Shown here: in pieces, positions 7,182 to 42,900 of the stretch | Layout: each line of letters opens with the position of its first letter | How positions within the stretch are numbered: the stretch's first letter is position 1 | Assembly (NCBI GenBank): GCA_021234155.1 | Contig: JAJEKV010000011.1 | Location: 16,072,441-16,136,440 of the forward strand | DNA length: 64,000 nucleotides | Direction of reading: 5' to 3' | Source: Isoetes taiwanensis | Lineage: Eukaryota > Streptophyta > Lycopodiopsida > Isoetales > Isoetaceae | Program-made: the position numbers and the translations under genes | The notes under the pieces: generated by a model | Database searches by the model: none | What the model saw: the letters and a program-made list of their open reading frames with translations, nothing else | What the model was told of the DNA's origin: nothing

Positions 7182-7199
7182 TATGAAGATTTTTTTTAG

Positions 7200-18710: not shown

Positions 18711-18818
18711 TATTCCTCATCTTCCACGGCCATCATCACAAAGTATTCAAATACTCACATAACATAGGCAGATAAAATAACTAAGAATTAAATCTAGGCT
18801 TGACCCATCATAGCAATA

Positions 18819-19276: not shown

Positions 19277-19748
19277 CAAAAAAAATTTTGGGCCCTTCGG
19301 GCCCTAACAAAGCAAACTCCCAAGAATGAAGCCTAGGCTAATCCAAAGACCAATGCACATTCGGCGTCTTAGAAAAGATATTGCATATAAACAGGTCGTT
19401 TAAATTATAATGATATTATAAAAGAAATTTAGAAATGAGCATATAATTAGCAGTGAGCTTATTTGAACCCATTATGTCTGCCCATATATATCTTTGCAAG
19501 CGTGTAAGATTGCAACATAAAGTACCAAAATGCTTTTGAAGAATATTAAATCTTATTACATACTACACTACCATAACAAGTATGCAAAGTAAACATTACC
19601 AACCATTTGAATATGAAGCACAAAAAAGGCGAGCAATGCAATAGTTTCACCAGATTTTACATTGCATACTAAGTTGATAGGTGGCCTTGTACCATGTTAG
19701 GAAAGTCTGTTGCATCACATAACTCCGTATGAGATGCATAAAGATTTG
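19277..19748. other. Intergenic, no gene recognised
   Basis: Only a perfect GC hairpin (gggcccttcgggccc near 19289-19303), immediately outside the foldback element, stands out. Confidence 0.3.
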
Positions 19749-20342
19749 CTAGCAATAGATTTGGAGAAGCATTGCATCACATAACTCCGTACTAGATGCA
19801 TAAAGATCTGCTGGTAATACATATGGAAAAGCATTGCCTGGATCTAATTGAAAGACAAACTCTGCAACATGTGCTGCACTGCACGCTCTAGACTTTCCAA
19901 GCAGGGTTCCCCATGATGTAACAGTAGGTTCAAAAGGTATGTTTGAAAGAAAAGCATGTGCTTTATCCAACCATATAGCCTATATGAGAAGATCGATTAT
20001 GCAATTGCAGTGCTCCAGCACTGGAATTATTCCATGGTCTTCCCACATGGTTATGAGATAGTAACAGCCTTCATCCACCATGTTAGGATGGAAAAAAACG
20101 CCAAGAATACTGCGAAATGTGATCTCATCAAACAACATCCCTCTCGACTGCATTTTTTGAATTAATTCCAGCACTTTGCTGCCATGACCATGCTGGGCAA
20201 ACGTCACAATCATTGCTGTCCAAGAAACCAAGTCATGCTGGTGAATGAAGTAAACTCTGGCAAAGCTACCATCGTGCATCTGGAATAACAATATATGGTT
20301 AACAATTGATGTAAATATGCAACTTAGCTTTAAAAAATACAC
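19749..20342 (-). pseudogene. PPR protein fragment (PLS subfamily, E-motif region)
   Basis: Pentatricopeptide-repeat proteins bind organellar RNA. Here the minus strand reads DLVSWTAMIVTFAQHGHGSK, then a FDEITFRSILG repeat, VDEGCYYLITMWEDHGI, LDKAHAFLSNIPFEPT, WGTLLGKSRA and FVFQLDPGNAFPYVLPADLYAS. This is the canonical order of the last PPR motifs and the E motif of a PLS-type editing factor. An in-frame TAG at about 19978-19980 interrupts the helix before LDKAHAF, and several consensus residues are degraded. No upstream motifs or DYW domain are visible, so it is a 5'- and 3'-truncated pseudogene fragment. Confidence 0.8.
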
Positions 20343-20412
20343 AACTTACTCTGGGCAAGTGCTTGGATGTTATTAACACAACCATAACCTGTGGCCCTAT
20401 CATAGCAGTAGA

Positions 20413-20690
20413 GTAGGTTCAAAAGGTATGTTTGAAAGAAAAGCATGTGCTTTATCCAACCATATAGCTTGTATGAGAAGATCAATTATGCAATTGCAGT
20501 GCAACAGCACTGGAATTATTCCATGGTCTTCCCACATGGTTATGAGATAGTAACAACCTTCATCCACCATGTTAGAATGGAAAAAACCACCAAGAATACT
20601 GCAACTTAGCTTTAAAAAATATGCAACTTACTCTGGGCAAGTGCTTGGATGCTATTAACACAACCATAACCTGCGACCCTGTCATCGATC
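20413..20690 (-). repeat. Partial duplicate of the PPR pseudogene with an internal deletion
   Basis: Sequence from 19924 to about 20114 recurs at 20413-20603 (offset 489), then joins directly to the equivalent of about 20320-20410, so roughly 200 bases are missing from the duplicate. The duplicate shares the TAG-region neighbourhood and adds its own substitutions. Confidence 0.85.
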
Positions 20691-20854
20691 CACAAATCAC
20701 AGGTCCGAGTTTTTTCTCTCCACCTTGGCTATAAAGAAGCTCAGAATATGCAGCCGGCCCTGTCCCTGCAGCCCCTGCCCTGCCCTGTAATCGCTAAAGC
20801 TGCAGGAACTGGAGCAAGAAGAGCTACCAAAATAGGTTCGGATCCATCTTGACC

Positions 20855-21121
20855 CTATAAAATGAATTCAGAACTAAAAAGGAAAAGGTTTTCTAGAAAG
20901 AAAAGGGGGTTACAGGAGAGATATGCAAGATGAACTTCCACACAGAGCTCCTCTGTAAGGCCCAAGATATGGCTAAGAACGTCCTCCTCTTCGAATGGAT
21001 CTCGCCATAGCTCCTCCACAGAATCCTCCACAGACCCTTCTTCGCTTTCTTCCTTCAAAATCGCCCCTTGAGACCCATCTGTGGCGCTCGAATCTGGACT
21101 ACAGCATTCTTCCGACCCCAT
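20855..21121 (-). CDS. Possible first exon of an unidentified acidic protein
   Basis: An ATG at 21121 opens a frame rich in Glu/Asp/Ser (SEEGSVEDSVEELWRDPFEE) followed by DVLSHILGLTEELCVEVHLA. The composition looks like a real intrinsically disordered N-terminus leading to a helix. The frame then becomes a hydrophobic tail that looks like intron read-through. No donor can be fixed with confidence. It may be the 5' exon of the minus-strand blocks at 17.8-18.7 kb, or an independent remnant. Confidence 0.3.
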   Translation of the reverse strand: MGSEECCSPDSSATDGSQGAILKEESEEGSVEDSVEELWRDPFEEEDVLSHILGLTEELCVEVHLAYLSCNPLFFLENLFLFSSEFIL

Positions 21122-21384
21122 AGCTTCTTCTGCAGATCACAGAGAAAAAAATGTGGAAACTCCCAGAACCTACTAGGCTGTACAATCCGGAATCCATCTA
21201 GTTGCACACAAAATCATGAGATGTGGCTCCTTTGCCTTTGCTTTCGCGAGCCCTGAAAGAAGAAAATGTCGAAACAAACTCCAAATAACCCTAAAATGTT
21301 CGATGCCTGCATGTTTGATTTTCAGATATGTAGAGAAATCATAGGTATGACCATTGAAAAATGCCACTAAATTTGGAGTGACAG

Positions 21385-23931
21385 TTTTTTTTTTTTTTGA
21401 AGGACGAAAGCCAAAAAGTTTATTAATCAGAGAAAAAGTACAAAATTTACATGTCTCGTCTAACTGTGTAAGCACACTGCCACAGGAGCATGAGCATGGA
21501 GCACAATGTACTTACTCCAGAATAGGAGACTAACGATAAGAATCAATTCGAAGATACTGAATCCAGATGCGTTCCACCAGTTCTGAGTCGAGGGAGGAAC
21601 ACTCGTAGGCTGTCAATATCTTTTTCTGGTCCACCGTAATAACATTGTGTGCAGATGAATAAATGCCCTGAAAGATGTGGTGTCTGCGACGCTCCCATAT
21701 CGACCATAGGAGCCAACCGGAACCAAGATGAAATGCCCTTTGTTTAGCTGGAGGCCATGCGTTGGGATAGGACGCCAAAAGGATGCATCGGCAGTCCAAT
21801 GTACTGTTAAACAAACCTTGTAGCCAGGACCACGCTGGTTGAACCTCAGGACAATGAAAGAGACAATGCTCGAGAGTCTCAACGTCCGAAAGACAGAGCG
21901 GGCATACTGCAGATATGCGAGGATCATAGTGATGTCGAAAGGCATTAACCCGTAGGCACCTGTGGATAACCTGCCACCACAGTACAGAGACTTTAGGGTG
22001 GAGCAACCTATCCCAAAGCCATCGCCATGTATGACACAAAGTGGGTTGTGGAACCTGTAGGTGCCACCCATTTGGCAACTGGGGGGGTTGTGGTGCTAAG
22101 AGAAGGCAATACACTGATCTGACAAATTGCTTGCCTTTGTGAATATTTTCATGACAGTCCCATGGCACCCTCTCAGCAACACCAACTTGCACTATAAGAG
22201 GCAAATTTTCTGCGACCTTCTCCCATAGAGATACATCCCAACGAGAGAGTAGGAACTTTGCCTGAAATTCAGGCCAAGACAGTAGGCGACCCTCCTCATA
22301 CCATGCTTGAATAGAGACAACACCTGCAAGAACCCATCGTCTCTGTGTAAGGGGATGAATTGAGGCTGCCAATGGAGGTGCTGAGGGGTCTGGAGGCAGT
22401 GGTGCCCACCACCATGGAGTCTCCAAAAGGATGTGGATAGAGGGGCATGGCCAGAAAAGATGTCTGACTGCCTCTCATGCAGCCAACAAGCCACGCAAAA
22501 ATGGAGAAGCACTTGGAAAAGGCTGCAGAGTCTGAAATAAAGCCCAAGGTAGGACTGGTTTGACAGTCTTCTTGCCTAGAGGGATACAGTGACCAAGAGC
22601 TTGTCTAAGAAGGCGTGAATCAGGAGAGTCATCCTCACCATTCAGAAGCCTCCAAATGAACTTTGAAATAAGCACTTTGCTCTGCAGTAAGAAGTCCATC
22701 ATACCCAGACCACCTGCCCATTTTGGAAGGATGCACTTCGACCAAACCACCTTAACCACAACAACTTCCTCAGTACCTGCCCAAATAAAGTTCCGAACTA
22801 TTGCAATGAGCTCACGCACTTTGATCTGTGGTGCTAGCAGTAAGGATGCCATATAAACATGGGTACTACTAAGGGCTGACTTGGCCACTGTAATGCGACC
22901 CGCAAGAGACAACTTAGCAGTGGACTACCAGAACAAGTGCTTCTCCAAACCCCTAATGATCTCCTCCCATGCAGCTCCCATAGTAACATGGATGCCAACT
23001 AGAATCCCAACAACTTGATGGCCTGTCCATGCGCAAGTAATTTCCATGGATAATCGTCAACACATGCCGGAGTCGGATTATCCAATGTCCACAAAGCTGT
23101 ACACTTCTGCCACCCCACAAGAACACCGGAAGCCAGTGAAAAAGTATCTAAAAGCATTTTGGCAGCAGCAAGATTCTCATCATTAGCGACTAGGAAGAGG
23201 AATGTGTCGTCTGCATATTGATTGCAAACCTCTTGTGTGCCGTCCTCCATTGCAAGATCATGGAGAAGTCCCTCTGTTGTTGCAATGGTGAATAACTGTG
23301 ACAAAGCCTCTGCAACAATTGTGAAAAGCAATGGTGCTAAAGGGCATCCCTGGCGAATACCATGACCGAGTGAAAAGGCATGTGATGGCACCATGGAACA
23401 GGACAGTCGCCCGAGCAGAGATATGCAGCTTTATAATATCTGATGTGAATTGTTCCTCAAATCCCAGTCTTAGCATACATCGGCGCATGAATTTCCAGCT
23501 GACACTGTCATAAGCTTTTGCAAAATCAAGCTTAAGGTATACAACTGGAAGGTTTTGCCTACGTGCCCAATAAATTCCCTCGTAAGCAGCAGCAACATTA
23601 TTCAAAATGCACCGTTTTGGAAGAAAACCTGACTGGGTAGTTGAGATGGACTCTGCCAAGATGTCCTTTACCCGCTCTGCAAAAGCCTTGGCGAAGATCT
23701 TATATACGGATGACAATAAGGTGATGGGCCGCCAATCTGAAATAGTCTGAGGATCCTTGACCTTGGGGATGAGTGAGATGGCACCTGTGTTTAGAATTCT
23801 ATCCAAAGCAGTGGACCGCCGAAAGTCACAGAAAGCATCATACACATCTGGCGCCAGCCATTCCCAATACTCCTGGAAGAACTCAATTGGCAAACCATCC
23901 AAACCTGGGCATTTGCCGCTGTCGAACCTAA
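21385..23931 (-). mobile_element. LINE-B, 3' part (reverse transcriptase, zinc-knuckle C-terminus, poly(A) tail)
   Basis: Minus-strand LINE split by the LTR element at 23932/40987. Frames in order are 23902-23258 (DGLPIEFFQEYW, ITLLSSVYKIFAKAFA, GFLPKRCILNN, LDFAKAYDSVSW), 23394-22999 (GIRQGCPLAPLLF and YADD), 22912-22475 (SLAGRITVAKSAL and the WAGTEE region) and 22426-21530 (zf-RVT-type domain with CPLCLSDVETLEHCLFHC). The poly(A) tail appears as a T run at 21385-21398. It has frameshifts and is inactive. The 12- to 13-base sequence next to the tail (21372-21384) recurs at 42496-42508 with one mismatch, giving the target duplication. Confidence 0.9.
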
Positions 23932-23936
23932 ATCAT
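23932..23936. repeat. Target-site duplication ATCAT, left side of the LTR element
   Basis: ATCAT immediately precedes the LTR start TGTGACG at 23937 and recurs at 40982-40986 right after the last LTR base. Removing the element rejoins LINE-B ORF2, which confirms the boundary. Confidence 0.95.
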
Positions 23937-24795
23937 TGTGACGTTCCACATATTTATACGCCTTTTTAAGTATAAATACGTGACACGTCACTATGAATAA
24001 TTAATGGTACATTAATTATTCATAAGCTAAGGTTAGCTATGTTAATAATTAATTATTAAAGTGGAAACCTAACCTTAAACCCTAATTCGAATTTAGGGCT
24101 TAACTTAATATTAAAAAGGGCTAAAATACCAAATTATCGAATATTAACCAATCTAGAGCTGCCACCTGGCCCAAATCGATTGGGCAAGGGAGAGTTACTA
24201 ATTTGGGACCCAAATTGGGGTTTTGTACCCCCATTTGCCCCAATTCGAATTGGGGGAGGTTGGAGGAGGAGGAGCTGCTGTTCCACCTTGTTCCAGCCAG
24301 AAGGATGGAGCACCCGAGCGATAGTGGACCTAGCTTGGATCCCGATTAGTACGTAGATAGCTTGGATTCCTAGATAGTCATAGGACTAACCATTGTATGC
24401 TCAGAAGGTAGGTAGGGTTAACCCTTGTATGAATAGATGCATGGTTAATCTCTACTTTATGTTCTATTCGAAGTATGGATGGATGGATGTATAAGGATAG
24501 CTTTCTTTCTGTTCCTCCTGTGTTGTGTGGGTAAAAGGGGGGTAGAGACCTAAAGGCCATCTAGAAGTAGAGATGCTCCTAGATAGAACCCTTAAAACCC
24601 AGTAAATGCGGCCTGTGCACAAGAGCCTACCTGCCTGTGGATGCTATGATGTGGTTCAGCACCAGACAACGAGTATGAAGGTGAATCGGGAGCGGGGTCC
24701 TGCCTAGCGCGGCTATACTCCTACAGTGTGCTAGGCTTATAGTCCGTCACCGTGTGTGGGCCGGGTATGGGTCTGACACTCTCTGGGTCGGAGGG

Positions 24796-26601
24796 TGTGA
24801 CGTCCCCTACTCGTATACGGTGCCCTCACCGTACACAAACAGGAGTTCATCCCCCATACCAGCTCCATGCTAATACAGGGCCCTCCACATGACACTGCAA
24901 CCGTGACGGGTTCCAGTGGGAAGAGTGGAAGGGTCATTGCACCCCGTCTCCCTCAGGGCCTACCTAGCTGCGGAAGCGTAAACATACATGTCAGTAGCAC
25001 ATACATCAACATCATATGACCATCACGAAGGATGGCCCTCCACATATCTGCATAGACAAAGATCAGCACATCCCATAGGGAATCCTACCCAAGGCTCGGA
25101 CTCAAGGGGATGACCGACGGCTTGGGTCTCCGTGAGTTCATTGCGGCATGTAATTCATGGCAATGGATTTGGGCTGGCATAAGAACATGGCTTAGGGTTG
25201 TCCACTCCATCCGCCCCTCCTGGCGTACACTTTGCGATAGGTTGAAGAACTTCGGGTTGGACCGTAGCTGCCGGGATCATAGCCAAAGGGGCTATAGCCA
25301 GGTTACATCTCCCCCGCACCGATGAGGCGGTGGGGAGGTTTCCCTCCCACCCGATGATCAATGCCATAGCAGGCGCACTAGAGGACACCAACCGTCCGCA
25401 CTCGACTTTAACCCACTTGAAGGGAGCTACCACCACGACCGGGGCCCCACCCCTGTGCCCGGCAAGACAACCACCGCACCACGTGGTCTCGGCTGAATCC
25501 CTCGGTGGCACCGCCGCCGCGGCTTCTTATCCCCAACGGTGTCGAACTCATACTCGGGTGCACGCAGGTCCACGAGTATTAAGCGCTTAGTCTGCGGTGC
25601 TCTCCCGTAGACTTTACATCCCGAGAGAGCAACCGCTATGGACACACGACCACCCTTATCAACCGGGTCGACCCCTAAGAACACAACACAAAGGGGCTAT
25701 TGCACGCAGCCATCTACAAGTGTGCTAGAGAGGCTACTCTAGGAGCATCAACTACAAAGCTTTAGGTCTCTACCCCCCTTCCCAATACAAGGAGTTCACA
25801 GAGATACATCATCCATGTACATCACAGAAGAACTAAAGAACAAGATCTAATCTATATCATAGAGTTAGGTTCTTTAGTTAGAATCTGCTATCTAGAGTTC
25901 TAGAGGGCTGCTATGGGCAACCTAATAGGCTAAACCTACTGATTCAATGACTAAAACAGGGTTTAGACTATCTAATTGGCCAAATACCTGATCCTTGAGA
26001 GACTCCTCCTGACCTGAGCTCGACCATCCTGCTGGAACGCTCGAATCTAGAGAAACTAAGGTTGCAATTCTCCCAGTCAGAGTCTGGGATGCGGTTTTGG
26101 CTGTTGAGGCAGCCAAAACAGAGTTCTGAAACCCTAAAATCGAAAATTAGGTTAGTTAGGGTTTCCAACCCTATATAGACAAGGGGGTGGCTAGGGTTTC
26201 CAATTATCCCCTTTTGGCATGTGGGATAATTGGTAATGGGCCCACTTGCCTTTAAGGGCTAGGTGGCCAAATGTGCCCACATGGAAATGTGTGCACCCAA
26301 ATGTGCTCACATGGAAATGTGTGCACATTAATGAATGTGTACATTGGAAAATGTGCACATTAATTACTCCTATGGGTATGGCCCACTTGGCATCAAGTGG
26401 CCACATGGAAATGTGTGCCCACATTAATGTGTACATTGGAAAATGTGCACATTAATACTAATGCACACTCTTAGCAAGTTGCCCCCTAGGGGCTACCCAC
26501 TTGGCTATACGTTGGCGTACACGTCAATCGGGGTGGCGTGTACGCGTGACGTGGCAGTACAATATACGTCCTGGGAGCGTATACTGTTCTGGAACGTCAC
26601 A
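24796..26601 (-). mobile_element. Solo LTR of a related element, inserted in reverse orientation
   Basis: 1806 bases with TGTGACG...CGTCACA ends, flanked by GAGGG on both sides (24791-24795 and 26602-26606). The 3' LTR of the host element has only one such site (gaagggcgtgag). The reverse complement shares the ends and several interior blocks with the host LTR, such as ggaggggcggatggagtgg, so it is a related but distinct family. No internal region or second LTR is present, so the partner LTR was lost by recombination. The region 26270-26460 holds short repeats of the type acatggaaatgtg, probably U3 repeats. Confidence 0.88.
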
Positions 26602-27059
26602 GAGGGCGTGAGTCATATGTGACCGTCCTGGGCTCGAACGGGTTGGTGAACTGACCTTTAGATTTAGGGGAGTAAGTCGGGTACGGGTGCGGGGGTCGCT
26701 GATGCAGTACGTGTTCTCTAGCACACCCAGGGATCCGTCATACTCGGGGAGGAGACGTCTCTCTGACCTGCCTCATCGGACCGGGGAGATGTAACCCGGA
26801 GTAGTCCTGAAGGGTGATTCCTTGGGATTGCGTCTCCGGAGGGCTACAAGCACGTTATAGCATGATTCAGCCTATCTGCAAAGTGTGCACAGGAGGGGCG
26901 GATGGAGTGGACAACCCTAGCCATTGTCTTATGCCAGCCAATGCCATGTTATACTTCCGTCTGTTGATATGTTGAGGCCCTGACCATCAGTCACCCCCAT
27001 AGAGTCTGAGCCCGGGGTAGAGCCCTTAATTATGGTGTATTTCCTTTGTTATGTTAGTA

Positions 27060-30000
27060 TCCTATTGTTTAAATTTGGTTTTTCCGAGGTTCCGAAATTT
27101 TTTTGGAATTTTTTTTAAGGTTAATTTTCTAAGGTTTCAAGGCTTTTAGTCGCCGAGAAAAAATTTCAGCATTCCAAAAATCAGGGTTGTGGCTCTTCCT
27201 AGGAAATTTGAATTTTGGGTTGATCGTCCCCAGCTGGCGGATTCCTCGGCATGTAGGCCACAGATGATCCTTCCAATCCTATATTGCATTTAATTTAATT
27301 TTTGGCAGAGATGATGGCGATGATTATAGCAGTTTGAAGTAGAGTTTTGTTTACTGTGATGTTTGCAAGGGCTTTCCGGCGTTCCCGTTAGTCCCGTGGA
27401 TTTATTATTACCAGATTCGTCATGTGGAAGGATTAGTTCTTCCATCATACTTAAGGATAGCATCCTCCGGCTTCTTCATGATAACAAGTTTCAGGTATTC
27501 TACAGATTTTTTCTTGAAGGACTATGTTGGGGAGTCTTCCTAATCATGGAAGGACATGAAATTTCTTGCTTAGAACATATTCACGGTGTGCATCCTATTT
27601 TGTGTCTGTTCTACTCTTCATAGGGTTTCAATCCAGCGTGAGAGTTGATGTTTCTATTTTTATTCTTACAGGTTCAGTTCATGTGGATGCAGAGCTTTAA
27701 TATCAATGCTTCACCACGGTGTCAAATCATAAGCTTTATCTAATCCTCTCACGATGGCAGAGAGCATGGATTTGGATCATTTGACCATTAGTATAGAGAG
27801 TTCAATTCCTAATTGATTCTGAAATAGCTATTGAGGTCTCATGCAAGAAACTATGTTTGTCTCAGATCTATCTTTTATGTGACTTCCAGGCAGATGCATC
27901 TACAGCAGCAAAAAAGTAAAATATTAATTTGGCAGATGCAAGATGCTCTTTTATTTATCATCTGTTACATGGACTTGAAAGGCCGTTCATAATAACCTCC
28001 AAGTTTGCAATTTTATGTGAGTATGTGTGGCAGTGATATTTATTCTGTTTAGATAGCGTATTTTGCAATGCTGCCTACGATTTTGATGCAGGATTAGTTA
28101 CAAGTACAAATGTTGCCATTCTAGCTATTTGTACATGCAAAGACTAAATATCTAAAACACCGAACATGTATGTTAGATTTGTGGTAAAGTTTAGTTCAGG
28201 CTATTCAAGTTGCAATGGCAGGACATGCTGAAAGAAGTATTTTTTTTCTATTTCATCTTCGAGGCAAGTTTTATGAAATTATTGTTACTGTTGATGCAGC
28301 GAGTGATGTAGAGAGTCATGCGAAGTTGTCTATTGTATGCAAGCTCAGGTAAATGGAACTATTATTATAGTTTTGTGGCTTAAAGCTTCAAAACATAGAT
28401 GCTTCTAGATTTTAGTTTGTAAAGCAATGCATCCACATGGTGTACAGACCCATTTGGAATATGACATAATGTACAATGTGCACATTTCTATGGAAATGGT
28501 AAAATCTATAATTTGGATATTTGTACATAAGCTTGCAGGTCTAGCGACGGGTATAGATGGCGTGAATTATCGTTAGCTTCTGCTACTGTCATCACATGCT
28601 AGGAATGAAACTTTGGATACTAGAATGTTATGCAGTTGGTCTTTGTCTATAAGGGGTATTCCTTGCAATATCTATGTAGTAGAAGATGCTGAAAGCTCTC
28701 GAACAGTGCCTTTGTATTGTTGCAAAGAAGGAATTTAATCTCTTATGAAACCTCCATCTATGTTTTGTACATTGCACAGAGTTCCATGTTTTATAGGATC
28801 ACTGCACTGCATATTTGCAGAATTGGGTAATTGTTTTTTGCAACACTTTTTTTCAAATTTATTACTTATTGAAATGTGTGCTCTTACCTGTTTCCTGTTT
28901 ACATATCCTCTTTATGTTAGTAGATAAGTATGTATGCAGATACTATGACAAAGGAAACAGATGCAGTTCGCGCTTCCTTTCACATGTAACAAATGCAACC
29001 TGCACTTGGAATGATGAGAGCAATCAATCTATCATGGCATCTGTTTTTATATAGCAGTTTTCTATCTTCTCACATCAAGGTTCAAAAATGTATTGCTCCA
29101 TGTAAGTCTCAAATTTGAGCAATCGATCTATCATGGCTGTTTTTATATAGTAGTTTTCTATCTTCTCACATCAAGGTTCAAAAATGTATTGCTCTATGTA
29201 AGTCTCGCGTACACCCTAATTCACATAACCACTGTAACCATAATTAGTGCAGTTGCATTCCAGTAAATGTGCAGATGCAGTCAATGCTTTAGAAGATGTA
29301 AAGGCCAGCCTCAGAAGTCTTTCTCCATCTTAAAGGCTGAATGCCATGTCGGGACTATAGAAGTTGCAGCATATCCTGTCAAAATGAGGAGTCTTCAAGT
29401 TTGTTCTTGATCATCTTCAACAAAGGCAGAATTTGTGTCCATCGGTTGCTTGCTCAAATCCACATTTGGATTATTCGAGAGGTATTGTAACTTAAGCAGA
29501 CGTTGCTTTAGTAAGACTTGCATCAGCTGTATTTTTTATGCTGGTTGCAGATTGCAGGCTATTAAATTGCAGGCCCAGGGACCCATGAATGTTTGAAAAG
29601 TCTTCCCTGCTTGAATTTTTCCAGTATTCAGTTTGTTTATGGCCCTTTGTACAAGGTGAGATGGAGAAGGCCTAGGCCTATATGTATGCATTCTTTGCTG
29701 GACCTTCTAGGTATATCTAGGATAGAAACCAAAATTGGAGACATAGTATTGACCTCATTCATCAAGTTGCACCCTTTTACAGAGGCAGTTAAACTCACAG
29801 TCTAGAACTGAGAAAAGAAGATACATGCAAGTAGTTTATCATTAAATTGGAATTAGGCTTGCAACTGCTGTGGGCAACAATGAATCTCTACATTCGCATT
29901 GTGAGTTTGCACAAATAAAAAACAAACAATTGGTCTTCATATTATGATAGTTTTTTTACTGTCTTCAAATTGTGCTTGGATTATCCAAGGCTGTCCAATT

Positions 30001-30878
30001 TGGAAGTTTTTAACACCATGAATGTTTTTTGCACACCAGGCACCCAAGCACCACTTCAAGAGCAAAAAGTGCCACACCAAATCCGCATTAAATATTTGAC
30101 TTTTCATGTGTATAATTTGTGCATGTCAAACTTTTCCCCTAGGGATAATCTGCCTCTTTGTGGTCAATGTTGTGAATTACAAAAATAGATAGATAGCAAA
30201 TGTGTTTAAGAGGATAGTCAAATGATGAACAATATCTATGGGTGACCTTTAGAGGTTTGCAAAGTCCAAGCTTTGTGAATAGAAAGCAACTTATTTTATG
30301 CACATGTTCAGGTAGATTTTGAGCGATGATCTGAACTTCTACAAATTCACGTTGACAACAATGATCACCTTCATACCCTGATTGTTTACAAAAATAAAAA
30401 AACATCTCAGCCTTCTCTTACAATTCCATTTGCAGGCTAGACATCAGCAAGCAGCAAGTCATCATTTAATAATTTAGATTTCATGATATCCTACACATAT
30501 GATGTCATAATGATGGATTTACATAGGCTTCAATCAAGGGATGGAGAGTGCTAGGGGCGTTCATTTCACTACTTCAGTCAAGACCTTCACTAAATGAATG
30601 AAGTATGCTAGACGTGTCGTACGGACATTTGTCATGCATTAATGCCCCTTATGCTATTGTTTCAGGCTAAAACCAACTCCTCTCCCCCCCACCCAAATAA
30701 GGAAAAGTTTACTGAATCATATACCACATCATTCAACGCATTGGCCAACTCCTTCTTAAGAATATACAACATACGAGGCTTTAGACAGCTCCTTGCTATG
30801 GATGCATAGATCTAACAGCTTCATATCTCTACAATACAACCGTATCTATGCCCGGCAACGCCGGGCACCCATTACTAG
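27060..30878 (+). mobile_element. Non-autonomous Helitron, 3819 bases, complete ends
   Basis: It begins TCCTATTG at 27060 and ends CTAG at 30875-30878. A stem-loop GCCCGGCAACGCCGGGC lies at 30850-30866, about 8 bases before the end. The host LTR reads ttagta before it and ttctgttg after it, and the 3' LTR has ttagtattctgttg uninterrupted, so it inserted between A and T without duplication, as Helitrons do. It encodes no Rep/helicase. Instead it contains exon-like pieces on the plus strand. Confidence 0.92.
27370..29333 (+). pseudogene. Exon-like gene fragments carried inside the Helitron
   Basis: Several short blocks have splice-like borders and protein-like composition, all on the plus strand. 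They are 27370-27494 (encoding SGVPVSPVDLLLPDSSCGR and on to KFQ, donor gtattc), a block after the acceptor cttacag at 27671, 28300-28348 (SDVESHAKLSIVCKL, donor gtaaat), 28940-28985 (TMTKETDAVRASFH), and 29275-29333 (NALEDVKASLRSLSPS then TAA). The order and strand suggest capture of parts of one gene, but phases do not all join and I do not recognise the parent. Capture of host exons is established for plant Helitrons. Confidence 0.45.
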
Positions 30879-31162
30879 TTCTGTTGTAGTTATATTGATG
30901 ATGATGGGCCACCCTTCGTGGTGGTATATTATTTATTAGAATTGTTGCTAGGTGCTAACATGTATGTACGCTTCCACTATATAGGATTCCCGTAGAAGGC
31001 GTGGGATGAATGACACCTCCGTGCCCTTCACCCGGACACTTGGCCATCACAAGTGGTCCGAGTCAGACGGAGGGCCTTTCCGTGGTGATGGATTCGCCAT
31101 GGGAGGGGAATTTCCTGTATTTATACGAGGGGAGCATCGTATGGATTCGGGGAGCGTCACAG

Positions 31163-31175
31163 TGGTATCCGAGCC
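31163..31175 (+). promoter_or_regulatory. Primer-binding site of the LTR element
   Basis: TGGTATCCGAGCC starts two bases after the 5' LTR. It matches the plant initiator-tRNA primer site TGGTATCAGAGCC except at one position. Confidence 0.85.
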
Positions 31176-31552
31176 ATGATTTTGGTGGACCAAAATTGTT
31201 GCACTGGCCATGTCTAACCCGTTAGACCGTTAGATAATAAAGGACCTCCAGTGCAGGAAAGTTACACCAAACCCATAAGTAGGATGAGTTTTAGCCTAAG
31301 TATGCGAGGATTGAGCTAGTTAAGAAGGGAAAAAATTCCAAATATTAAGATGAAGTTATGTTCTGTTTCGGCAGAATGCAGTCCCTTTCTTCCGGAGGCC
31401 ATAACTTGCTCTAGGTAACTCGGATTGAGGCGATTTTTGCTCCAGCGCGTGCAGCACGGTCCAAATACCCTAAAGGAGTCGTCATCCTGCTGAAAAAGAT
31501 CGAGAAAGGGCGCCAAAACCCAACAGCGGCGCTGCCCGGGTTTGGTCGCTCC

Positions 31553-31862
31553 AGAATTTCGAAATAAACGCGTATAACCGGAGCAGCGCCGCTCCGTATA
31601 AAACGTGTATTTCTGCCATATAAAAATTTTCATATTTTTTTTATATATACCTAATTCTCTGGCGCCTCAACCTAGATTTGAACCCATGACCTCTCAACTC
31701 CGCAACCAGAATTTCGAAATAAAAGCGTATAACCGAAGCAGCGCCGCTCCGTATAAAACGCGTATTTCCGCCATATAAAAATTTTCATATTTTTTTTATA
31801 TATACCTAATTCTTTGGCGCCTCAATCTAGATTTGAACCCATGACCTCTCAACTCCAAGCCT
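31553..31862. repeat. Direct tandem repeat, two units of 155 bases
   Basis: Unit 1 starts at 31553 and unit 2 at 31708, both with agaatttcgaaataaa. They share gcagcgccgctccgtataaa and catataaaaattttcatat. Each ends with a tRNA-like B box in reverse (gatttgaaccc). Confidence 0.9.
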
Positions 31863-31880
31863 AGGTGCTTACCACCACCC
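31830..31880 (-). repeat. tRNA-like sequence (pol III A and B boxes)
   Basis: On the minus strand TGGTAAGCACC (31864-31874) precedes GGTTCAAATC (31830-31839) at the spacing of internal pol III boxes. A similar pair lies at 31971-32016 (GGTTCAAAGC and TTGGTAAAGCA), and a lone B box at 31675-31684. No complete cloverleaf is evident, so these are SINE-like or decayed tRNA-derived sequences rather than tRNA genes. Confidence 0.5.
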
Positions 31881-34529
31881 CAAGCTCTCTTAAATGTAAT
31901 AATGTGTTTCACATATTTCTTATACACATATAGTACCCTATGCAACTTTTATATAAAAGTCTATTATGGGGCTTTGAACCCTTGACCTCCCAACACCCAG
32001 CCAAATGCTTTACCAACAACGTAAACCTTCTTTTAGTGATAACAATAGTCTTGTTTTATACTTAACCGATATTGAGGTGGCAACAACTCCGTCGGACTTG
32101 TGCAACCATGGTGAGCTAGAAATCACTTAGGAGTTATTATCATCATTGCGGAATGTCTCCACAACCATATCGACATAAGTTTACGCTGAGTGATGGAAGG
32201 AAATTCCTCGGAGTAGGATAGAAACTTCCAAGTTGGATTCTAATCCACTATTCACCTTGGATATTCTTTAGGCGACGATAATAATGTCCAGTTATCGACG
32301 TTCCTAGACCTATAACTTTCCTTTGGTGAATGCCTTAATAACAAAAGTTCTTCAGGCCTTGCCATGATTCAATCTATACTACATTCATATGCTTTATATT
32401 AGACCTTATTCGACGTTATATATTAAGGATTGAGTAATACCTTATAGACATAATTATAATTAACGTCTTGACTCGTTCTCATTCCCCCGAGAAAGGATCT
32501 CTTTATCGTCCAACCGACTAGGGACTGCCATGCAGCACCCCTCTAGACCATCGGTTTGGATTTCTTTGATCCTACCACCCTCCAATATTCCTTCTCATTG
32601 GCCGTGTTCCTTTTATGGATCACTTCCCCCAGACCATGATACATACTCTGTAATACGTTGTGAGTGCTTGTGTTAGAACCCCCACAACAATGTCAGCACT
32701 TTATTCTAATTAATCCCGGGTACAAACTCTAGTAGTATTTTGTGCCAAACTTCACCGCCTATATGGTTGTGATTAAACATCTGCGCCATACGCCTGTCAA
32801 AGTGACAACGGTCTACCCTCTTTTGGAGTTGTTCTCCCGTACATTCCAATGGCCTCCAACCATTGTTAACTACTCACCTCCTTCCAGGGCATCTAGATAT
32901 GGTCCGGAAAAAGTATTTACAACCATTATTTTAATGCCTCAACGTCCTTAAGTACCGCAAATGAACTTACATATTCCAAGGGATTATGTGAATATCCCAA
33001 AGGACAGTACCATCCAAAGACCTCTCAAGATAGGCCTCCCCTATTAAGAGCTCTTGTGTTCAAGTCTCTGGGGGTCCGTCATATGTCCTCATGGACGCTG
33101 CCAATGTGGCATAGATACTATCTATCTATCTATCCATTGAAAAGGTTCTTGGTGAATTCAACTCACCATGTTGTCCTAGGACATGGAAGTCTTCCTCCCT
33201 AAGCCATGCACCAAATCTTTAAAGAGCTTTTCATCTCTTGCTGCCTTTCAAGCTGCAAGTCTCTCTTTGCATGTTAGCAAAGACCACCCTTTATGTTAGG
33301 TAATAAACTTCCTATCCAAATTGCTAAATATCATTAATAAAGGTCCAAATGACGTGGCGTCTTCATATAAGCCATAGTCATGGCCTAAGAGCGAGTGATC
33401 CTTCGTATAAATCGTAGATTACCTGGAGTCATCAAGGTGCCTGCTGGGTATTTTGTGAGTCTCCCTACAATTGCCTATGTTTGATATGACTCGGACTTGT
33501 ATCAATGTTCGAGTCCTGTATATTCTAACTTGCACCTCCATGTAACCCATGGCGTTCACCTCTGCCTGATCCGGGTATGGATCATGTGGGAAAGCTAGTC
33601 TTAGGTGTCTATGCAAGACACATTCGCACTTCTAGCAGGTAGCTACTATTCGATACCTATCCTGGAATTGTACTATTGTACTATTCAACCCCATCATCCT
33701 AAATTTTATTCTATTCGCCGTTGACATTTATTTCAAGTGCCAACTACCACATCATACCTTAGCATGCAACAGATTGAATGTTGTTTGCACATTTCGAACA
33801 TATCTCCAGACCCTTCATCGGTAACTTTGGGGTACACTCGTTTTTCTCTCCTTGTGTCGCCACCTAGATTGCCTCTCCAAGATGTTTATCGTATGTGTAC
33901 ATAGTATGTACATAATAAACATATATCCACATCCCACAATCCTAGAGCTCTGCTCTAACTTAGCTAAAGTGTAACCTTATTGTGGTTGTGCCACCTACTT
34001 CCCAAATGGACAGGGGCCAACTCTATGTTGGACTTGTATATGCTGCCTATATTTTGATAGAGTCTCTAGCTATTTCAACCATTCCTTTAGTGCCTTGTGG
34101 TACTTTAACCTCGTACATAAACTATGATTTCCTCCACGAGATTATGCCATAATTCCGAAGGCCATTACCCCACATGAGGAGCTTTTCTAAAGGCTTCTTT
34201 TACTAAGGATCCTTTGTGTCCTCAATATCAACTATGCTTCATCAGAATTAACCTATTTTTCTTGAGTTATCTTGTGAACTTCAGTTTTTGATCAGCTTCA
34301 AGTGTTGTCGTCTTTGGCTCCCTTATAATAAAGCGGAGGCACTAAAACCCCTTGTCTCGTAATAGGAAAATCCAATGTTTCAATCTTCGTTCATAACCGC
34401 CATGTAGTTATCTGATTCCCTACCCTCTTAAGAATTCCAGAGTCATAATCTCTAAGGGGTCTATGCCTCAAGGCAACAGATCCTCCACTTTCTACTTCGG
34501 TATCTAGAATTGTTCCCCGCGAGTAAGGT

Positions 34530-34850
34530 AATTCACCCCTTATTCACCCCTTATTCCTTAATCTATACCGTACGTAAAGTTCCTCGTTTATGGGGTATGC
34601 AAGTACAAAATTTGCTATACTGTATAACAAGATTCGCAAAATACTATAAGATTTCAAGCGGAATACTATATGGTGTTGATTTCATACGTGCAAAATACAA
34701 TTATGAGGGCTCTCGCTGCCCTACCTCACCCCCCGTGTGAATATGCACCCAAATCAAAGGGGGTTTAAGGGGGATTTTAATTTAAATGTGTTGGACTCAA
34801 TGGTTGTGTTAATTAATGTCAATGGTCGTTATGTATTGGTTGTTAATGTC
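34530..34850. mobile_element. Diverged foldback element, one arm retained
   Basis: Shares its centre (gaatactatatggtgttgat, ggggctctcgctgccctac-like) and right arm (ccccgtgtgaatatgcaccc, gattttaatttaaatgtgtt) with the element at 18819-19276, in the same orientation. The left arm is missing or too decayed to see. It lies inside the LTR element, so it inserted after or together with it. Confidence 0.8.
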
Positions 34851-35587
34851 TACGAAATCAACACCATAAAAACCAGAAAAAAACTAGAATTCATTTGAGG
34901 CTTTCATCACCTGTAGCTTTTGAATTTGATCACAATAAAACAAATAGAACATAAGTAAAAGTTACCATAAAGATAGAGCAGATTGATCCCATTATTCTGA
35001 AAGTCATAAAGTTTGCAAAACAAAGAAAACCCTATGTCATTATGCTACATATTGTTACTTCCGCTACAACTATTTCTCTTTCACAATGACACCATTGTTT
35101 ATCAATTCACATGATTTTGGATGCTCCATCTCTAGCTTAAAGGTAATGCATGATTCACCTTATGGTTCAATTAAAGTTCCAAACCTACAATATAAATGCA
35201 TTCTTGTGGCCACTGTTTGACTGATCTGCGTGACATGGAAAAGGGCGTGGAATAATCCGCCTGTTGTGTGCATAAGAATCCGTTTGTTGATTGAAGTTAA
35301 AGGCTGGCTGCTATGAACAATCCGGCAGCCAGGAATATCCAAGAGTTGGAAGCAAACAGAGGACTAAACTCTAAATTCTTTTTGAATCTGCAACAAATCT
35401 TAGGAAGGAAACAAAAGGGGGTTTTGCAGCACTACATTGTAGAATCAGGAAACCAATTCCTTGTAAAAAAAAAACATTATGCTAACTGAAGAAACATTAA
35501 AAAACAAACACCTTTGTAAGTGTGAGCAAAAAATCCATCTCGTGGTAGTAAAATCCACTCCGGCAATAAGAATCCAAGAGGGCAAGT

Positions 35588-35770
35588 ACACATGCATATG
35601 CACACATGCACACACATGCACACATGCACATGCACTTGCACTTGCACTTGCACTTGCACATGCACAATACACATGCACATGGATATACATGAACATGCAC
35701 ATGTACACACATGCACATGCATGTGCACATGCACATGCATACACATGCGCAGTGTTCATGCACAAACACA
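35588..35770. repeat. CACATG / CACTTG minisatellite
   Basis: Runs of 6-base units (cacatg, cacttg) with scattered variants. Several frames on both strands stay open here purely because the repeat lacks stop codons; they are not genes. Confidence 0.92.
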
Positions 35771-38700
35771 TGCAGAGAAAGACAACAACCCTCGGATTGT
35801 TCCAACCAACGAAAATCAACGGCCCATAAAGGGTGCACTCTAGAAATACTATTTAGTACACCTCAACGAATACAACAACGAAATCATAGAAAAACCATGT
35901 GAAAAAGCGTATAAAAATCTAAAACTAACCCCCTGTTATTGTGCTACATATTGGACTGACTACTGGTCTATATAATCACACCCCTTCTGATCTCTATACC
36001 TCGTCTTGATTCTTATCGGGACTTGGAATTGCTCTATATTGCCCTCTTCTCGGTTATCCATAAAGGTATAGTCACTAAAGTCGTCGTACTCCTTCTTTTA
36101 TTCCATCAGGGCGACGCGATATTTTATACGTCTTTTCATTCCCAGAACCGAATAGATGTTCTCGGCTTATAACGCTGAAATAATTCATTGATATCTAGAA
36201 CATTTGAGTAGTTAAGCTCTCGTTCTCGGTTATTCCAACACCGTTCCAATCACCCTCGGGATGCTTTTGAATGTAACATCACCGCATATGCTAGACTTAC
36301 TCTGGCTATTTTCACTGATTTCTTTCCATATTCCTTAGTACGATGAACCTAAGATAGGCAACTCCAACCATTGGGGTAACTTGAATGCTTATCTCTCCTG
36401 GATCATACTTAATCCAATATCTTGAGTATATGCCTATCATTATGCTTATTCTTTAAGCCTTCCTACGTAATATTTCACTCGCCTTATACGAATATTTTAC
36501 TATCTTTCAATATGATATACATCTAAATATCACAATCGACATCTTCGATAGTCGTACGACCCCATCAAGGGTTTCCAGATCGTTAACATCCTTCGCGATC
36601 ACGCTTTCGAACATTTACAGCCTACGCTCGGTCGCACTTGGAATTATTGAGATTATACTAAGCAGGCAGCCTTTGCTGATGCGAACGATCATCTCTCGCA
36701 AATATTTTATGCACTTTGAGATCTTTTTAATTTGTTCATCATCAGCCCTACTTTGAACTATCAGTATGTTATAATTCAGGCTTCGACTAGGTACACGTGT
36801 GAGCCAACTCTAAGTCTAGACTCATAGTGATTATTTGACATAGCCACCTAGCTATGTTCATACTTGCCACCAATTTATTTCTCTGCTACCATGGACATGT
36901 TGTGGTTTTGACACCACACCTTCTAGACTCTCTAGCCATAGTTGCCGTGGTCCTCAAGCTTGAGTCACAAATTCCACAGGGGCAAATGTCACCCTAAGTC
37001 CTACTGGACATGTTTAACGACTCGTATAGGGACTCTTATCTTCATTACTTCCGTATTCATATGGAATGTGAACTAAAAGTTCTATTATACACCCTTTCTT
37101 TTCTTCTTGTGTTTTACCATTAAATGGTCCTGGTACGCATATACCAATGCGGAGCTACTCCTCGGGATACACACACGATACCAAGTCCAGAGCACATTCT
37201 CCTTGGTGAGATGTTCAGTGGGCACCTACCTTGTTCATACTCCCGACTTTGGTCTATTCAAAGTATCCCTCCAAATTCTCTATATTTGAGACTTTGTTTA
37301 CAACAACTTTCAAGTACCTCTTGTCAAACACTGGCCTTGTGGGTGCATTACTTACCTCCCTAGTGTATCATTAGTGAAGGTCAACTTTCCTTCATAGTTT
37401 AGCTTCCGCAAAGCTCCAACATACTTTGTAGCTCTCAGACGGTTGCACCTTCTGCTACCAATTGCATCTTCCATTCTAGCCGTCTTACAGAATGCTTATT
37501 CATATCTTCGTTCAGTTCGACCTCGACTCTCTTGACCTTGTATGGAACCTACGTTCCACAATATTGCCCAGTCTTTTATTTGGCATCTCGATGCTCCCAA
37601 CAGACATAAGATGTGTCCATTTCCTTTAATTTATATCATGCATAATGGTCATGCATTTGACCAACGTCATTAAGCGTATCCACGTGACTATATGGTCATC
37701 TTAATCATGCACACATTTACATCGTTATTGCACACCTCAGGAACATCAATCTCCTGACGAAACGCAACGTATGCGTAATTTTATAATCCGTAGTTTATGA
37801 ATCCGCATCCTCACACAGCATTATTCTCTACCTTTCCGCGAATCATACCTCCATTCAAGTAGCAATAGCTATAAAATGTCGGGTCGACATTTTATGCCTG
37901 CACCATCATGGTCGAAACCTACACTTCTAAAGTGGTCTCCCTTTCAGGAGCTGGGTACTTATAATCCAGTTTCCACCTTAGTATAATACCTCTCTAACGT
38001 GGTCTATGGTAGATAATCATAAACCACTTCTCCATCGGATATATGGTGCTATATCCAGTCTCCTTCTATGTTGAATGGCAATATATATGCCGCATACTAA
38101 ATCAATCCTCCTAATTAGTAGGTCCAGTGTTTCCATCGAATAACAAACATCGTCCTACCAATTTTCTCGAGTATCCATCCAAAATAAGGATACCTTACCA
38201 CTCCTTATTCCCAACATCCAACACTTCTTCTTCAAGTACGAGGCCATCACCTGCTTAATCATCATTGTATAACAGCCTCAAGAAGCACCAGGCATGCTTC
38301 CGATGCTTCCGCCGTATCTGTGCGATGTCAATGTAACAATATCTAGATGTCTAATAAATGTATAGATATAACTAGTGAATTAATATGTGTGCTCGTGTGA
38401 GATAAAGCTCATTTTAGTATTAGTTCACCTCGAAATCCCCTTGTGTCAATTAACCTAAAGAACCATCTATTACTTTTGGAAAGAAATGTTTAATTTTACT
38501 TGAAGCTAACAATATAGCAATTGGAGTTTTACATCTTAGGACTTTATTTGAAATCAAACCAACATTTGAATCAACAATGTAGCCTCATTTTCTAAGGGTC
38601 TTTACCCTTTGCATATCAAGGTCAGGTTATCACTACAGCTAGGCGCAAACTATGGATCGAGAGTGTGAGTCTGGAAACATTAAAGATGGTCAAAAGAAGA

Positions 38701-39368
38701 AAGGTATCTAAACACATAATCAAATATAGTAGAATGAGATAAAATAGCAAGACTTACGTAAAAATATCAGATACAGTACAATATCTAATTGTATTAAAGG
38801 CTAAGTATAAATGTGAGGGGCATGTAAAACACTGAGGATAGGGACATATGAGTTCTTAAAACTGTACCAAAATATCAAAAAACAAAATTCAGATACAAAA
38901 TTAAATTAGGGCTGGCTGTAATTAAATGACATATACACAGAAGTTTATATGATTAGAATCACTTTCTACTAAACAGTGTGAGATTAATAACTCCGTATTA
39001 TAATATAAAACAAATAGAAGTTGCTTATATCTATACCTGTCTATATTATATAATCAATTACACGTGCGTATAGAAAGAATGAATTCAAAATTAGGTACTC
39101 TGAAAAAGTGAGACTTCCACACACCTTGATTGTTCACTTTTGACTGTCTTAAACGATGATCACGTCTGCCCTATACCCCTATCTTTTTATCCCAGAGTTA
39201 TAAATTGCACATTACAAGTCATTTCAAACTTAATCACTTTGAACACGACAAAGTCTGTGCGACTTATAATCTCACGCTATCTCTTTAAGGAGGGGAGACT
39301 TCCTTCCAATGTACGATATGCTGCCCTGCAACAAGAGTAGTCTTGATGCTGAGGACAGCGTCACTTTT

Positions 39369-39381
39369 AAGGTGGGGAGAA
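39369..39381 (+). promoter_or_regulatory. Polypurine tract of the LTR element
   Basis: AAGGTGGGGAGAA abuts the first base of the 3' LTR, the expected position for plus-strand priming. Confidence 0.85.
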
Positions 39382-40981
39382 TGTGACATTCCACATATTT
39401 ATACGCCTTTTTAAGTATAAATACGTGACACATCACTATGAATAATTAATGGCACATTAATTATTCATAAGCTAAGGTTAGCTATGTTAATAATTAATTA
39501 TTAAAGTGGAAACCTAACCTTAAACTCTAATTCGAATTTAGGGCTTAACTTAATATTAAAAAGGGCTAAAATACCAAATTAGCGAATATTAACCAATCTA
39601 GAGCTGCCACATGGCCCAAATCGATTGGGCAAGGGAGAGTTACTAATTTGGGACTCAAATTGGGGTTTTGTACCCCCATTTGCCCCAATTCGAATTGGGG
39701 GAGGTTGGAGGAGGAGGAACTGATGTTCCACCTTGTTCTAGCCAGAAGGATGGAGCACCCGAGCGATAGTGGACCTAGCTTGGATCCCGGTTAGTACGTA
39801 GATAGCTTGGATTCCTAGATAGCCATAGGACTAATCCTTGTATGCTCAGAAGGTAGCTAGGGTTAACCCTTGTATGAATAGATGCATGGTTAATCTCTAC
39901 TTTATGTTCTATTCGAAGTTATGGATGGATGGATGTATAAGGATAGCTTTCTTTCTGTTCCTCCTTTGTTGTGTGGGAAAAATGGGGGGTAGAGACCTAA
40001 AGGCCATCTAGAAGTAGAGATGCTCCTAGATAGAACCCTTAAAACCCAGTAAATGCGGCCTGTGCACAAGAGCCTACCTGGCCGTGGAGGCTATGATGTG
40101 GTTCAGCACCAGACAACGAGTATGAAGGTGAATCGGGGGCGGGGTACTACCTAGCGCGGCTACAGGACTCCTACAGTGTGCTAGGCTTATAGCCGGTCAC
40201 CATGTGTGGGCCGGGTATGGGTCTGACACTCTCTGGACCGAAGGGCGTGAGTCATATGTGACCATCCTGGGCTTGAACGGGTTGGTGAGCTGACCTTTAG
40301 ATTTAGGGGAGTAAGTCGGGTACGGGTGGGGGGGTCGCTGATGCGGCACGTGTTCTCTAGCACACCCAGGGATCCGTTATACTCGGGGAGGAGACGCCTC
40401 TCTGACCTGCCTCATCGGACTGGGGAGATGTAACCCGGAGTAGTCCTGAAGGGTGATTCCTTGGGATTGCATCTCCGGAGGGCTACAAGCACGTCATAGC
40501 ATGATTCAGCCTATCTGCAAAGTGTGCACAGGAGGGGCAGATGGAGTGGACAACTCTAGCCATTGTCTTATGCCAGCCAACGCCATGTTATACTTTCGTC
40601 TGTTGATATGTTGAGGCCCTGACCATCAGTCACCCCCATGGAGTCTGAGCCCCGGGTAGAGCCCTTAGTTATGGTGTATTTCCTTTGTTATATTAGTATT
40701 CTGTTGTAGTTATATTGATGATGATGGGCCACCCTTCGTGGTGGTATATTATTTATTAGTATTGTTGCTAGGTGCTAACATGTATGTACGCTTCCGCTAT
40801 ATAGGATTCCCATAGAAGGCGTGGAACGAATGACACCTCCGTGCCCTTCACCCGGACACTTGGCCATTACAAGTGGTCCGAGTCAGACGTAGGGCCTTTC
40901 CGTGGTGATGGATTCGCCATGGGAGGGGAATTTCCCTTATTTATACGAGGGGAGCATCGTATGGATTCGGGGAGCGTCACA
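39382..40981 (+). repeat. 3' LTR, 1600 bases, uninterrupted
   Basis: TGTGACATTCC...GAGCGTCACA. It provides the empty-site reference for both inserts in the 5' LTR and is followed by the ATCAT duplication at 40982-40986. Confidence 0.95.
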
Positions 40982-40986
40982 ATCAT

Positions 40987-42495
40987 CAGCTGTCATCGCC
41001 GCCTCTATTGACTCGCGCTGCTCACCAGAGATGATGGGGAAAATCCTAGATAAAACAGCATGTTGCATTTCTGATTGAAAGGGAAGATGTTTCTCAGCAA
41101 AAAACATCTGGAAGTGGTTATGCAGATGCTGCTTGAGTTCAATCGGCTCTGTTAGCACCAAACTATTCGGCAAAAGCAATGAAGACATGGTTGATGTCAT
41201 GCGACGCCTCTTAGTTGCACGAAAAAAGAAGCCCGTACAACGGTCTCCATCACGAAACCACTGCAGACCTGCCTTCATCTTTGCTTGCTGAATTTGCTCC
41301 TCCTCCAATGCTTGGATCTGTGCCAAAATATCACGATCATGAACACCTGGAAGACGTCCCTGTCGAGAATGGAGCAGGTCCTGATACAAGGTGTCCAGTA
41401 AAGCATGACCTGCTGCAGCAGACTCTCGACCCCACTCTTTGGCAAAACCCTTGACTGCCGCAATTGCATCCACTATGCCAGTCATACCTCGATGTCGGTT
41501 GAAGGCAGTTGTCCAAGTATTCTTGCAACCTTCTTGAAAGTCAGCATCCTTTAAGAACTTCACGTTCAAGCGAAAACACGTCCTTCCACAATAATTGTGT
41601 GAGTATGCATTCCAATAAGCTCTGCATTTCAATAAGCTCTATCCAACCGAGAGCTTGCGCGACCACCACCAACTTGACCATTGCACCAAGTGAAGGCACC
41701 TTCACCATCAATCTCCGAGAGGTTGCAGTCATGGAGTAGACGGAGCCACTGCTGGCGTTCAAAACCAGACTCCACTGTAGAGGTCGCCCCCAACCGATCA
41801 GACTCCACTTCCACCATATTGAGATCCCCAACAAGAAGCCATGAAATGTGGCAGCCCAAGTTGAGTATCTTCCCTCACAAAGAGGCCCACGGTGAAGCTC
41901 TCTGATGAGGTCTATTGTGGGCGTAAACATTAATTAGACCATATTTAACCCCTTGTTTCGGCCATACAATTAGGGCCCAATGACCAAAGCGATCAGCCTG
42001 AGTAAAGATGACTGGCAAGGAAGGAAGCCATGCTATCACGACCCCTGCACTGGCAGAATCAGCTGCTGCGATAAGGACATTAAACCTGCGACCAATCATG
42101 TCTGCAAGCTTTGATACGTCTCCCTTACGACACTTATGCTCTTGAAGACATACAAACTGAGCATCCAATCTAGATAAGTAAAAAGAAATACGACTCCGCT
42201 TGAGGGGGGAGGAGGCTACCCCCTGAACATTCCATGAGACTAAGCGCATTGATCTTGTGATGGGGCCAATTCAGATGAGACCACTGGTGTCTCAAGGGAA
42301 TTTGAGGATGTTTCCTGGGCACCTGGCATGGCAGTAACCTCATCAACCAAATCAGCCCACTGAAGTGGATCAAAGCGACCACCATGGGATGCAATGGGAG
42401 GGGCAATGCTACCTGAAGCAGGAACTGAGGGCTGGGACGCAGAGGAATTAGATCCCTTAGCTGACTTTCGTGGTTGACGAAGAGCCGGTGGATGT
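40987..42495 (-). mobile_element. LINE-B, 5' part (ORF1 end, endonuclease, linker)
   Basis: Minus strand. The C-terminus of ORF1 (about 42490-42240) ends in a TAG that overlaps the ORF2 ATG in the ten bases ATGCGCTTAG. ORF2 starts MRLVSWNVQGVASSPLKRS, the classical plant LINE endonuclease opening. It continues through DAQFVCLQEHK, a broken middle with LLVGDLNMVEVESDR (about 41840-41795), and the linker to 40987, which joins the 3' half at 23931. ORF1 is 5'-truncated: the element begins at 42495, next to the target duplication at 42496-42508. Without the LTR element LINE-B would be about 4.06 kb. Confidence 0.9.
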
Positions 42496-42508
42496 TTTGG
42501 AATGACAG

Positions 42509-42900
42509 TATGTGCACTCTAGATATACCGATTAGTATGTCTCGCAAAATACAGCCATCAAATCATATAAACTATTGAAAAAAAAGTATAAAAATACAAA
42601 AGAAACCCCCTGTTATTATGCTACATATTTCAAGTCCTCACAGAAGCATATAAGATGACTAAGAATTAGATCTATCTTCTCCACCTGGGTAGGAAGGTGG
42701 AATAGATTGTGAAAGATTCCTCTCATCATATACAGTCATTTGCCTAGTGTTGAGTTCCATTGCCTAGTGTTGAGTGCCAGTAGAAACCTCTCTTCATGGT
42801 CTAGCTTCTTCTCTAAAAAAACGGTAGAGAATAATAAATATCAAAACAAATATTCTAGAAACCAAACCCTTCATGAACTCCATTGACTTGTAATAGAATG
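42509..42900. other. Intergenic with a dispersed motif
   Basis: Contains the recurrent line accccctgttatt-tgctacatat near 42605, shared with about 35930 and several sites at 53.5-56.5 kb. No gene seen. Confidence 0.4.

Follow-up and report, generated by a model that had tools for sequence, protein, structure and literature searches.

How many transposition events are stacked at one locus of the quillwort Isoetes taiwanensis, and can their order be read from the genome rather than assumed? The locus lies in a 64,000-nucleotide stretch of contig JAJEKV010000011.1 (positions 16,072,441 to 16,136,440 of the forward strand), hereafter the window, in which all positions are counted from the first letter. 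An initial annotation had described a four-level nest, in which a long interspersed nuclear element (LINE-B) contains a Ty3-type long terminal repeat (LTR) element whose 5′ LTR is interrupted by an inverted solo LTR and a Helitron. Comparison of the joints with the rest of the genome (1,658,258,908 bases in 1110 contigs) revealed six elements (X1, LINE-B, the LTR element, the solo LTR, the Helitron and X2) with a true depth of four levels, and we consider it highly probable (about 0.93) that the nest arose from six or more independent transpositions. Copies of every host layer without the insert persist in the same genome, so the sequence of events is verifiable joint by joint.

All four elements of the initial annotation were confirmed at base level, including target duplications, LTR borders, the solo LTR and the Helitron. 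These four by themselves make three levels; the fourth is reached only when an outermost repeat that it had missed, X1, is counted. A further insert in the LTR element, X2, had also been overlooked. The features of the nest are as follows.

18819–42629, plus strand: X1, outermost multi-copy repeat; own sequence 18819–21371 and 42496–42629, which includes one LINE target copy
18819–19277: left foldback module of X1; the left border is good to a few bases
21372–21384: left copy of the LINE-B target duplication, TTTGGAGTGACAG
21385–42495, minus strand: LINE-B, L1-like; own sequence 21385–23936 and 40987–42495, with ATCAT counted once
23937–40981, plus strand: non-autonomous LTR retrotransposon of probable Ty3 ancestry, recognized from its LTR pair, siblings and open reading frame (ORF) scans; interrupted 5′ LTR 23937–31161, interior 31162–39381, 3′ LTR 39382–40981
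24796–26601, minus strand: inverted solo LTR of a Ty3 chromovirus family, recognized from its GAGGG duplication and family copies
27060–30878, plus strand: non-autonomous Helitron with 5′ TC and a 3′ hairpin followed by CTAG, between A and T
34535–35952, plus strand: X2, second X-family copy, in the interior of the LTR element, recognized by sibling comparison
42496–42508: right copy of the LINE-B target duplication, TTTGGAATGACAG

The alignment of 23937–31161 with 39382–40981, proposed in the initial annotation as a check, was run as part of a self-comparison of the window. The 3′ LTR matches 23937–24804 (95.8%), 26603–27068 (95.5%) and 30871–31161 (96.2%), and these three separate pieces demonstrate that the 5′ LTR equals the 3′ LTR with two interruptions. 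The element as a whole is bracketed by an ATCAT duplication (23932–23936 and 40982–40986), and 5-bp duplications were likewise read from the flanks of three full-length siblings (CACCC, GCAAA and GCTGG). Paired LTRs with TG...CA termini, the 5-bp duplication, a polypurine tract and a primer site, which we take to be of the initiator-methionine tRNA type, identify an LTR retrotransposon.

The first interruption is a single LTR with both termini (TGTGACG...CGTCACA), GAGGG on each side and no interior, and full elements of the same LTR family exist, including one on contig C1044 with paired LTRs and a coding interior; these features identify a solo LTR. At the corresponding place the 3′ LTR reads AAGGG (40241–40245), one transition away from GAGGG. 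In the genome search for the solo LTR (query starting at 24797, one base inside the element), matches confined to positions 1–891 raised the possibility of a chimera of two LTR subfamilies. Binned identity led us to reject it: the 1–891 part is common to both subfamilies, and 12 distinct whole-length loci (15 rows, three loci being listed twice) match throughout, mostly with their lowest value in one middle bin (82–90%).

The second interruption begins with TCCTATTG and ends with a hairpin and then ACTAG, flanked by A (27059) and T (30879); the 3′ LTR reads GTA directly followed by TTCTG at this site, with the break after 40698. The 5′ TC, the 3′ hairpin with CTRR and insertion between A and T without duplication are those of a Helitron. 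Two of the five relatives examined (L065 and L066) have this hairpin and, after CTAG, a T, another (L067) aligns to the last base and is off-pattern, and L063 and L064 stop short of the 3′ end. Among the 89 rows of the Helitron search, 11 besides the window's own have their first matching base at query position 1 and 10 have their last at 3819, which marks both termini as borders of the family. Since only the window's own copy matches over the whole length among the 40 places scored, the interior is apparently a mosaic. None of the 23 Helitron ORFs of at least 50 amino acids showed a Pfam match above cut-off, with no Rep/helicase coding region among them, and the element is therefore non-autonomous. 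Its matches elsewhere in the genome are 71–94% identical and uninformative on the insertion date. A near-tandem 90-base duplication (29018–29110 and 29117–29206) was also observed within the Helitron.

That the 3′ LTR provides the empty site for both inner inserts, as initially proposed, was borne out beyond the window. When the best 40 of 10133 first-look candidates for the 3′ LTR were scored, yielding 47 rows, 40 rows were uninterrupted at both the solo-LTR and the Helitron positions, 39 of them besides the window's own 3′ LTR; the other seven are fragments too short to cover both positions, and the interrupted 5′ LTR of the window falls outside the 40 scored places. The order from LTR element to solo LTR and Helitron has support beyond that given by the window's own 3′ LTR.

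One level further out, LINE-B carries endonuclease (PF03372), reverse transcriptase (PF00078) and zf-RVT (PF13966) domains in pieces on the minus strand, a poly-A tail that appears as a run of T on the left, and a target duplication that is longer than those of LTR elements and identical at 12 of 13 positions. These are features of an L1-like LINE, and from the domain order we presume membership of the L1 clade. The endonuclease ORF piece starts 225 bases from the 5′ border. We scored the best 40 of 5373 candidates for LINE-B and took relatives with 1500 bases of flank; the other scored copies are 88–96% identical. All five relatives read run through the LTR-element joint without interruption, so the two LINE halves rejoin as the annotated nest requires. 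L057 and L061 carry an identical LTR-element target, GCTGATGATTTAGG, and L057 also shares the next eight bases. Relatives that align only from position 17 or 20 had suggested that the halves do not meet cleanly; the window copy is a net 16 bases shorter beside the joint, not at it, and this separate change explains the misfit. The 5′ half of the window's LINE-B contains a further shortening, of about 76 bases.

The sequences on either side of LINE-B resemble the ends of X2 (18973–19277 versus 34547–34850; 42512–42629 versus 35833–35952). When the outer flanks were joined and searched in the genome, 36 of 47 rows spanned the joint; two of the others are the window's own halves, one is the locus on contig C971 and eight match one side only. 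Because 34 of the 36 spanning rows stop at query 533–540, corresponding to window 42628–42635, the sequence around LINE-B is a dispersed repeat that has a right border, its last bases in the window being CCCCCTGTTATTATGCTACATATT. All six loci read are contiguous across the LINE-B joint, and these paralogous empty sites carry exactly TTTGGAGTGACAG in four cases and differ from it by one base in two. On C971, sequence beyond 42629 is joined within a few bases to sequence left of about 18819, with X1 absent; the flanks there are identical to the window at 290 of 302 (left) and 400 of 428 (right) positions. This junction, together with the paralogue borders, indicates that X1 spans approximately 18819–42629 and that C971 preserves a paralogous locus without the entire stack.

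The interior of the LTR element holds the remaining insert. X2 is absent from all three full-length siblings read (C723, C930 and C1042), the other loci found (C952 and C1025) not covering the site; the empty site holds about 10 bases (TTAGGATATA) that are missing at the window joint. When the best 40 of 4093 candidates were scored, one was the window and the other 39 places were scored as copies, making X2 a member of a dispersed family. The copy on C932 differs from X2 at 5 of 1406 sites (99.6% identity; Kimura two-parameter distance (K80) 0.0036), and by this comparison X2 is the layer with the best evidence for recency. The solo LTR, the Helitron and X2 are siblings inside the LTR element, and nesting gives no order among them; the five differing sites suggest that X2 is probably the youngest of the three.

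Borders, duplications, paralogous empty sites and nesting order are thus directly observed, and they independently support the order given initially, in which the LINE came first, the LTR element second and the solo LTR and Helitron after it. From these observations we infer the mechanism of each insertion. X1 inserted first, at a locus whose X1-free paralogue persists on C971, and an L1-like LINE then entered X1, probably via target-primed reverse transcription, consistent with the 13-bp duplication and poly-A tail. A non-autonomous Ty3-derived LTR element followed, entering the LINE coding region just upstream of the reverse-transcriptase domain with a 5-bp duplication. Within it, an LTR element of another chromovirus family inserted in inverted orientation and later probably lost its interior by LTR–LTR recombination, leaving the solo LTR; the Helitron inserted separately, and X2 probably last.

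To place these events on a time scale, we compared the LTR pair, which differs at 58 of 1595 sites (K80 0.0374). The inferred age is 1.4 million years at 1.3e-8 or 2.7 million years at 7e-9 substitutions per site per year, neither rate being calibrated for Isoetes. Nearest-sister distances (K) are 0.0374 for LINE-B (best of four compared) and 0.0299 for the solo LTR (best of three compared), with a sampling error of about 0.004–0.005 on K estimated from counts; the C971 flanks differ from the window at 40 of 730 sites (5.5%). LINE-B is bracketed in time, below by the LTR pair inside it (K = 0.037) and above by the nearest of its four sisters (K = 0.037), and since it must predate the LTR element, its insertion is bracketed close to that element's age. 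The solo-LTR bound is compatible with an insertion younger than the LTR element and by itself is no proof of it. The distances do not contradict the nesting order.

Several observations weigh against reading the nest as six ordered insertions. The scoring of LTR copies favours long unbroken matches, so 39 of 39 overstates the generality of the empty state. Only about 730 bases of the C971 match were read, and a precise loss of X1 there is a remote possibility. The X1 and X2 joints are not simple gaps, about 3 and about 10 target bases being missing, respectively. All empty sites are paralogues from this one genome rather than orthologues from a sister species. A nearest-sister distance gives no more than a maximum for the insertion age, one that hinges on which few copies were compared, and the solo-LTR bound of 0.0299 is within error of the LTR pair at 0.0374.

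Could the nest nevertheless be smaller, with LINE-B outermost and X1 a mere flank, giving three levels and four elements? The correctness of all four initially annotated elements and their borders fits such a view, but the joined LINE flanks recur as one repeat in most rows with a shared right stop, C971 lacks X1, and X2 is an additional insert in any case; we regard the smaller nest as very improbable. Slightly less credible still is the idea that the 5′ LTR was interrupted not by insertions but by assembly chimerism or ectopic recombination. The genome is repeat-rich and the joints were read from the assembly; against this, both the solo LTR and the Helitron end at family termini that occur in other copies, each with the expected target signature (GAGGG, and insertion between A and T).

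An origin of X1 and X2 as filler DNA from break repair, rather than by transposition, deserves more weight and is still unlikely. It would account for the lack of a clear target duplication, for the bases lost at the target (about 10 for X2 and about 3 for X1) and for the variable left ends of X copies. However, X copies share an almost invariant right end, scoring yielded 39 further places as copies of X2, and the near-identity of X2 over 1406 sites with its counterpart on another contig suggests a replicating element.

The right end of X is nearly fixed: of the 14 ends read, from X1, X2 and 12 loci, all but that of L042 have CTACATAT, and T follows it in 12 of these 13, the exception being on C1045. 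The left end is variable and contains a foldback, in which 18816–18954 is inverted to 19136–19274 at the left module of X1; its loop is reversed in some genome copies (e.g. C907, C1034 and C1018), as if able to flip. No consistent target duplication was found among X copies with both ends read, although the one on C1045 may have 6–8 bases. X copies seem to be mosaics, because the copy on C1025, whose left end agrees to within a few bases with that of X1, has a middle that, in the part read, does not match the window's 19318–20585. X1 also contains a pentatricopeptide repeat (PPR) fragment (PF13041, PF01535). A PPR-like piece is duplicated within X1 (19923–20113 and 20412–20602, 95% identical) and looks like a captured gene fragment.

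The nearly fixed right end, the foldback left end with its loop in either orientation, gene pieces, small target deletions and lack of a consistent duplication leave some room, though not much, for X being a transposon type not yet described. A microsatellite tail, considered when one copy ended in a TATTC run, was rejected, as the run occurs on both sides of that copy and is target sequence. At L042 (contig C963, about 985–1501), an X copy with the deviating right end is followed, at most about 16 bases on, by another X left module in the same orientation, an arrangement that suggests head-to-tail copies. No ribozyme or other RNA family matched in the window at gathering scores. The 43 weaker RNA-family matches in 34400–36000, the best with E 1.5e-5 to a microRNA model and far below its gathering score, all fall on a CA-rich repeat and were dismissed as chance.

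The class of the host LTR element required separate consideration, since the initial label "Ty3-type" held for its probable ancestry and not as a description of a coding element. None of its 46 interior ORF pieces of at least 50 amino acids has a Pfam domain above cut-off, and neither the gag–reverse transcriptase–RNase H–integrase order nor a chromodomain of a chromovirus was found among them. The best sub-cut-off match, DUF6526 (E 0.019), lies in X2, on its CA-rich repeat. In sibling C930 there are just two ORFs of at least 120 amino acids, and its ORF list, the only one searched for a coding partner with the host element's own LTR family, yielded none. The chromovirus on C1044 (L016) codes reverse transcriptase, RNase H, integrase and a chromodomain, unlike the host element, and belongs to the same LTR family as the window's solo LTR. 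It shares with the host element its terminal motifs, primer-site region, polypurine tract and LTR blocks of 37–109 bases. Because of these shared blocks, primer-site region and tract, the host element looks like a large non-autonomous relative of a coding Ty3 chromovirus, Ty3 by likely descent only. A tandem duplication of 151 bases (31551–31701 and 31706–31856, 96%) lies near the start of its interior.

Large retrotransposon derivatives (LARDs) are a class of large non-autonomous LTR elements, and the host element resembles them in its LTRs, primer-site region, polypurine tract and long interior without gag-pol domains. It differs in the interior, which is about 6.8 kb here without X2. A coding partner is proposed from the shared primer site and tract alone, so mobilisation by such a partner is hypothetical.

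Nested transposons in plants are of a known, ordinary kind; what is unusual here is the completeness of the record. Nested LTR-retrotransposon clusters are known from maize and wheat, where elements likewise lie within elements and order is taken from nesting, target duplications and LTR divergence. The present nest differs in being from a quillwort, in combining six elements of at least four kinds, and in the comparison of each joint with uninterrupted paralogues. Several kinds of element were active within a short span in this lycophyte genome, and analysis of the nest also revealed an unclassified repeat family, X, with a very recent copy. The locus is not named in any title or abstract opening of the literature searched.

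Further repeats occur elsewhere in the window. A 1450-base direct repeat (2450–3899 and 5783–7232, 97% identical) is possibly an LTR pair or a nested cluster, with additional repeats between its copies (4129–4576 and 4962–5416). An adjacent tandem duplication of about 580 bases (10423–11003 and 11004–11577) is 96.7% identical, and a cluster of related direct repeats is common to 53362–54545 and 45355–45697.

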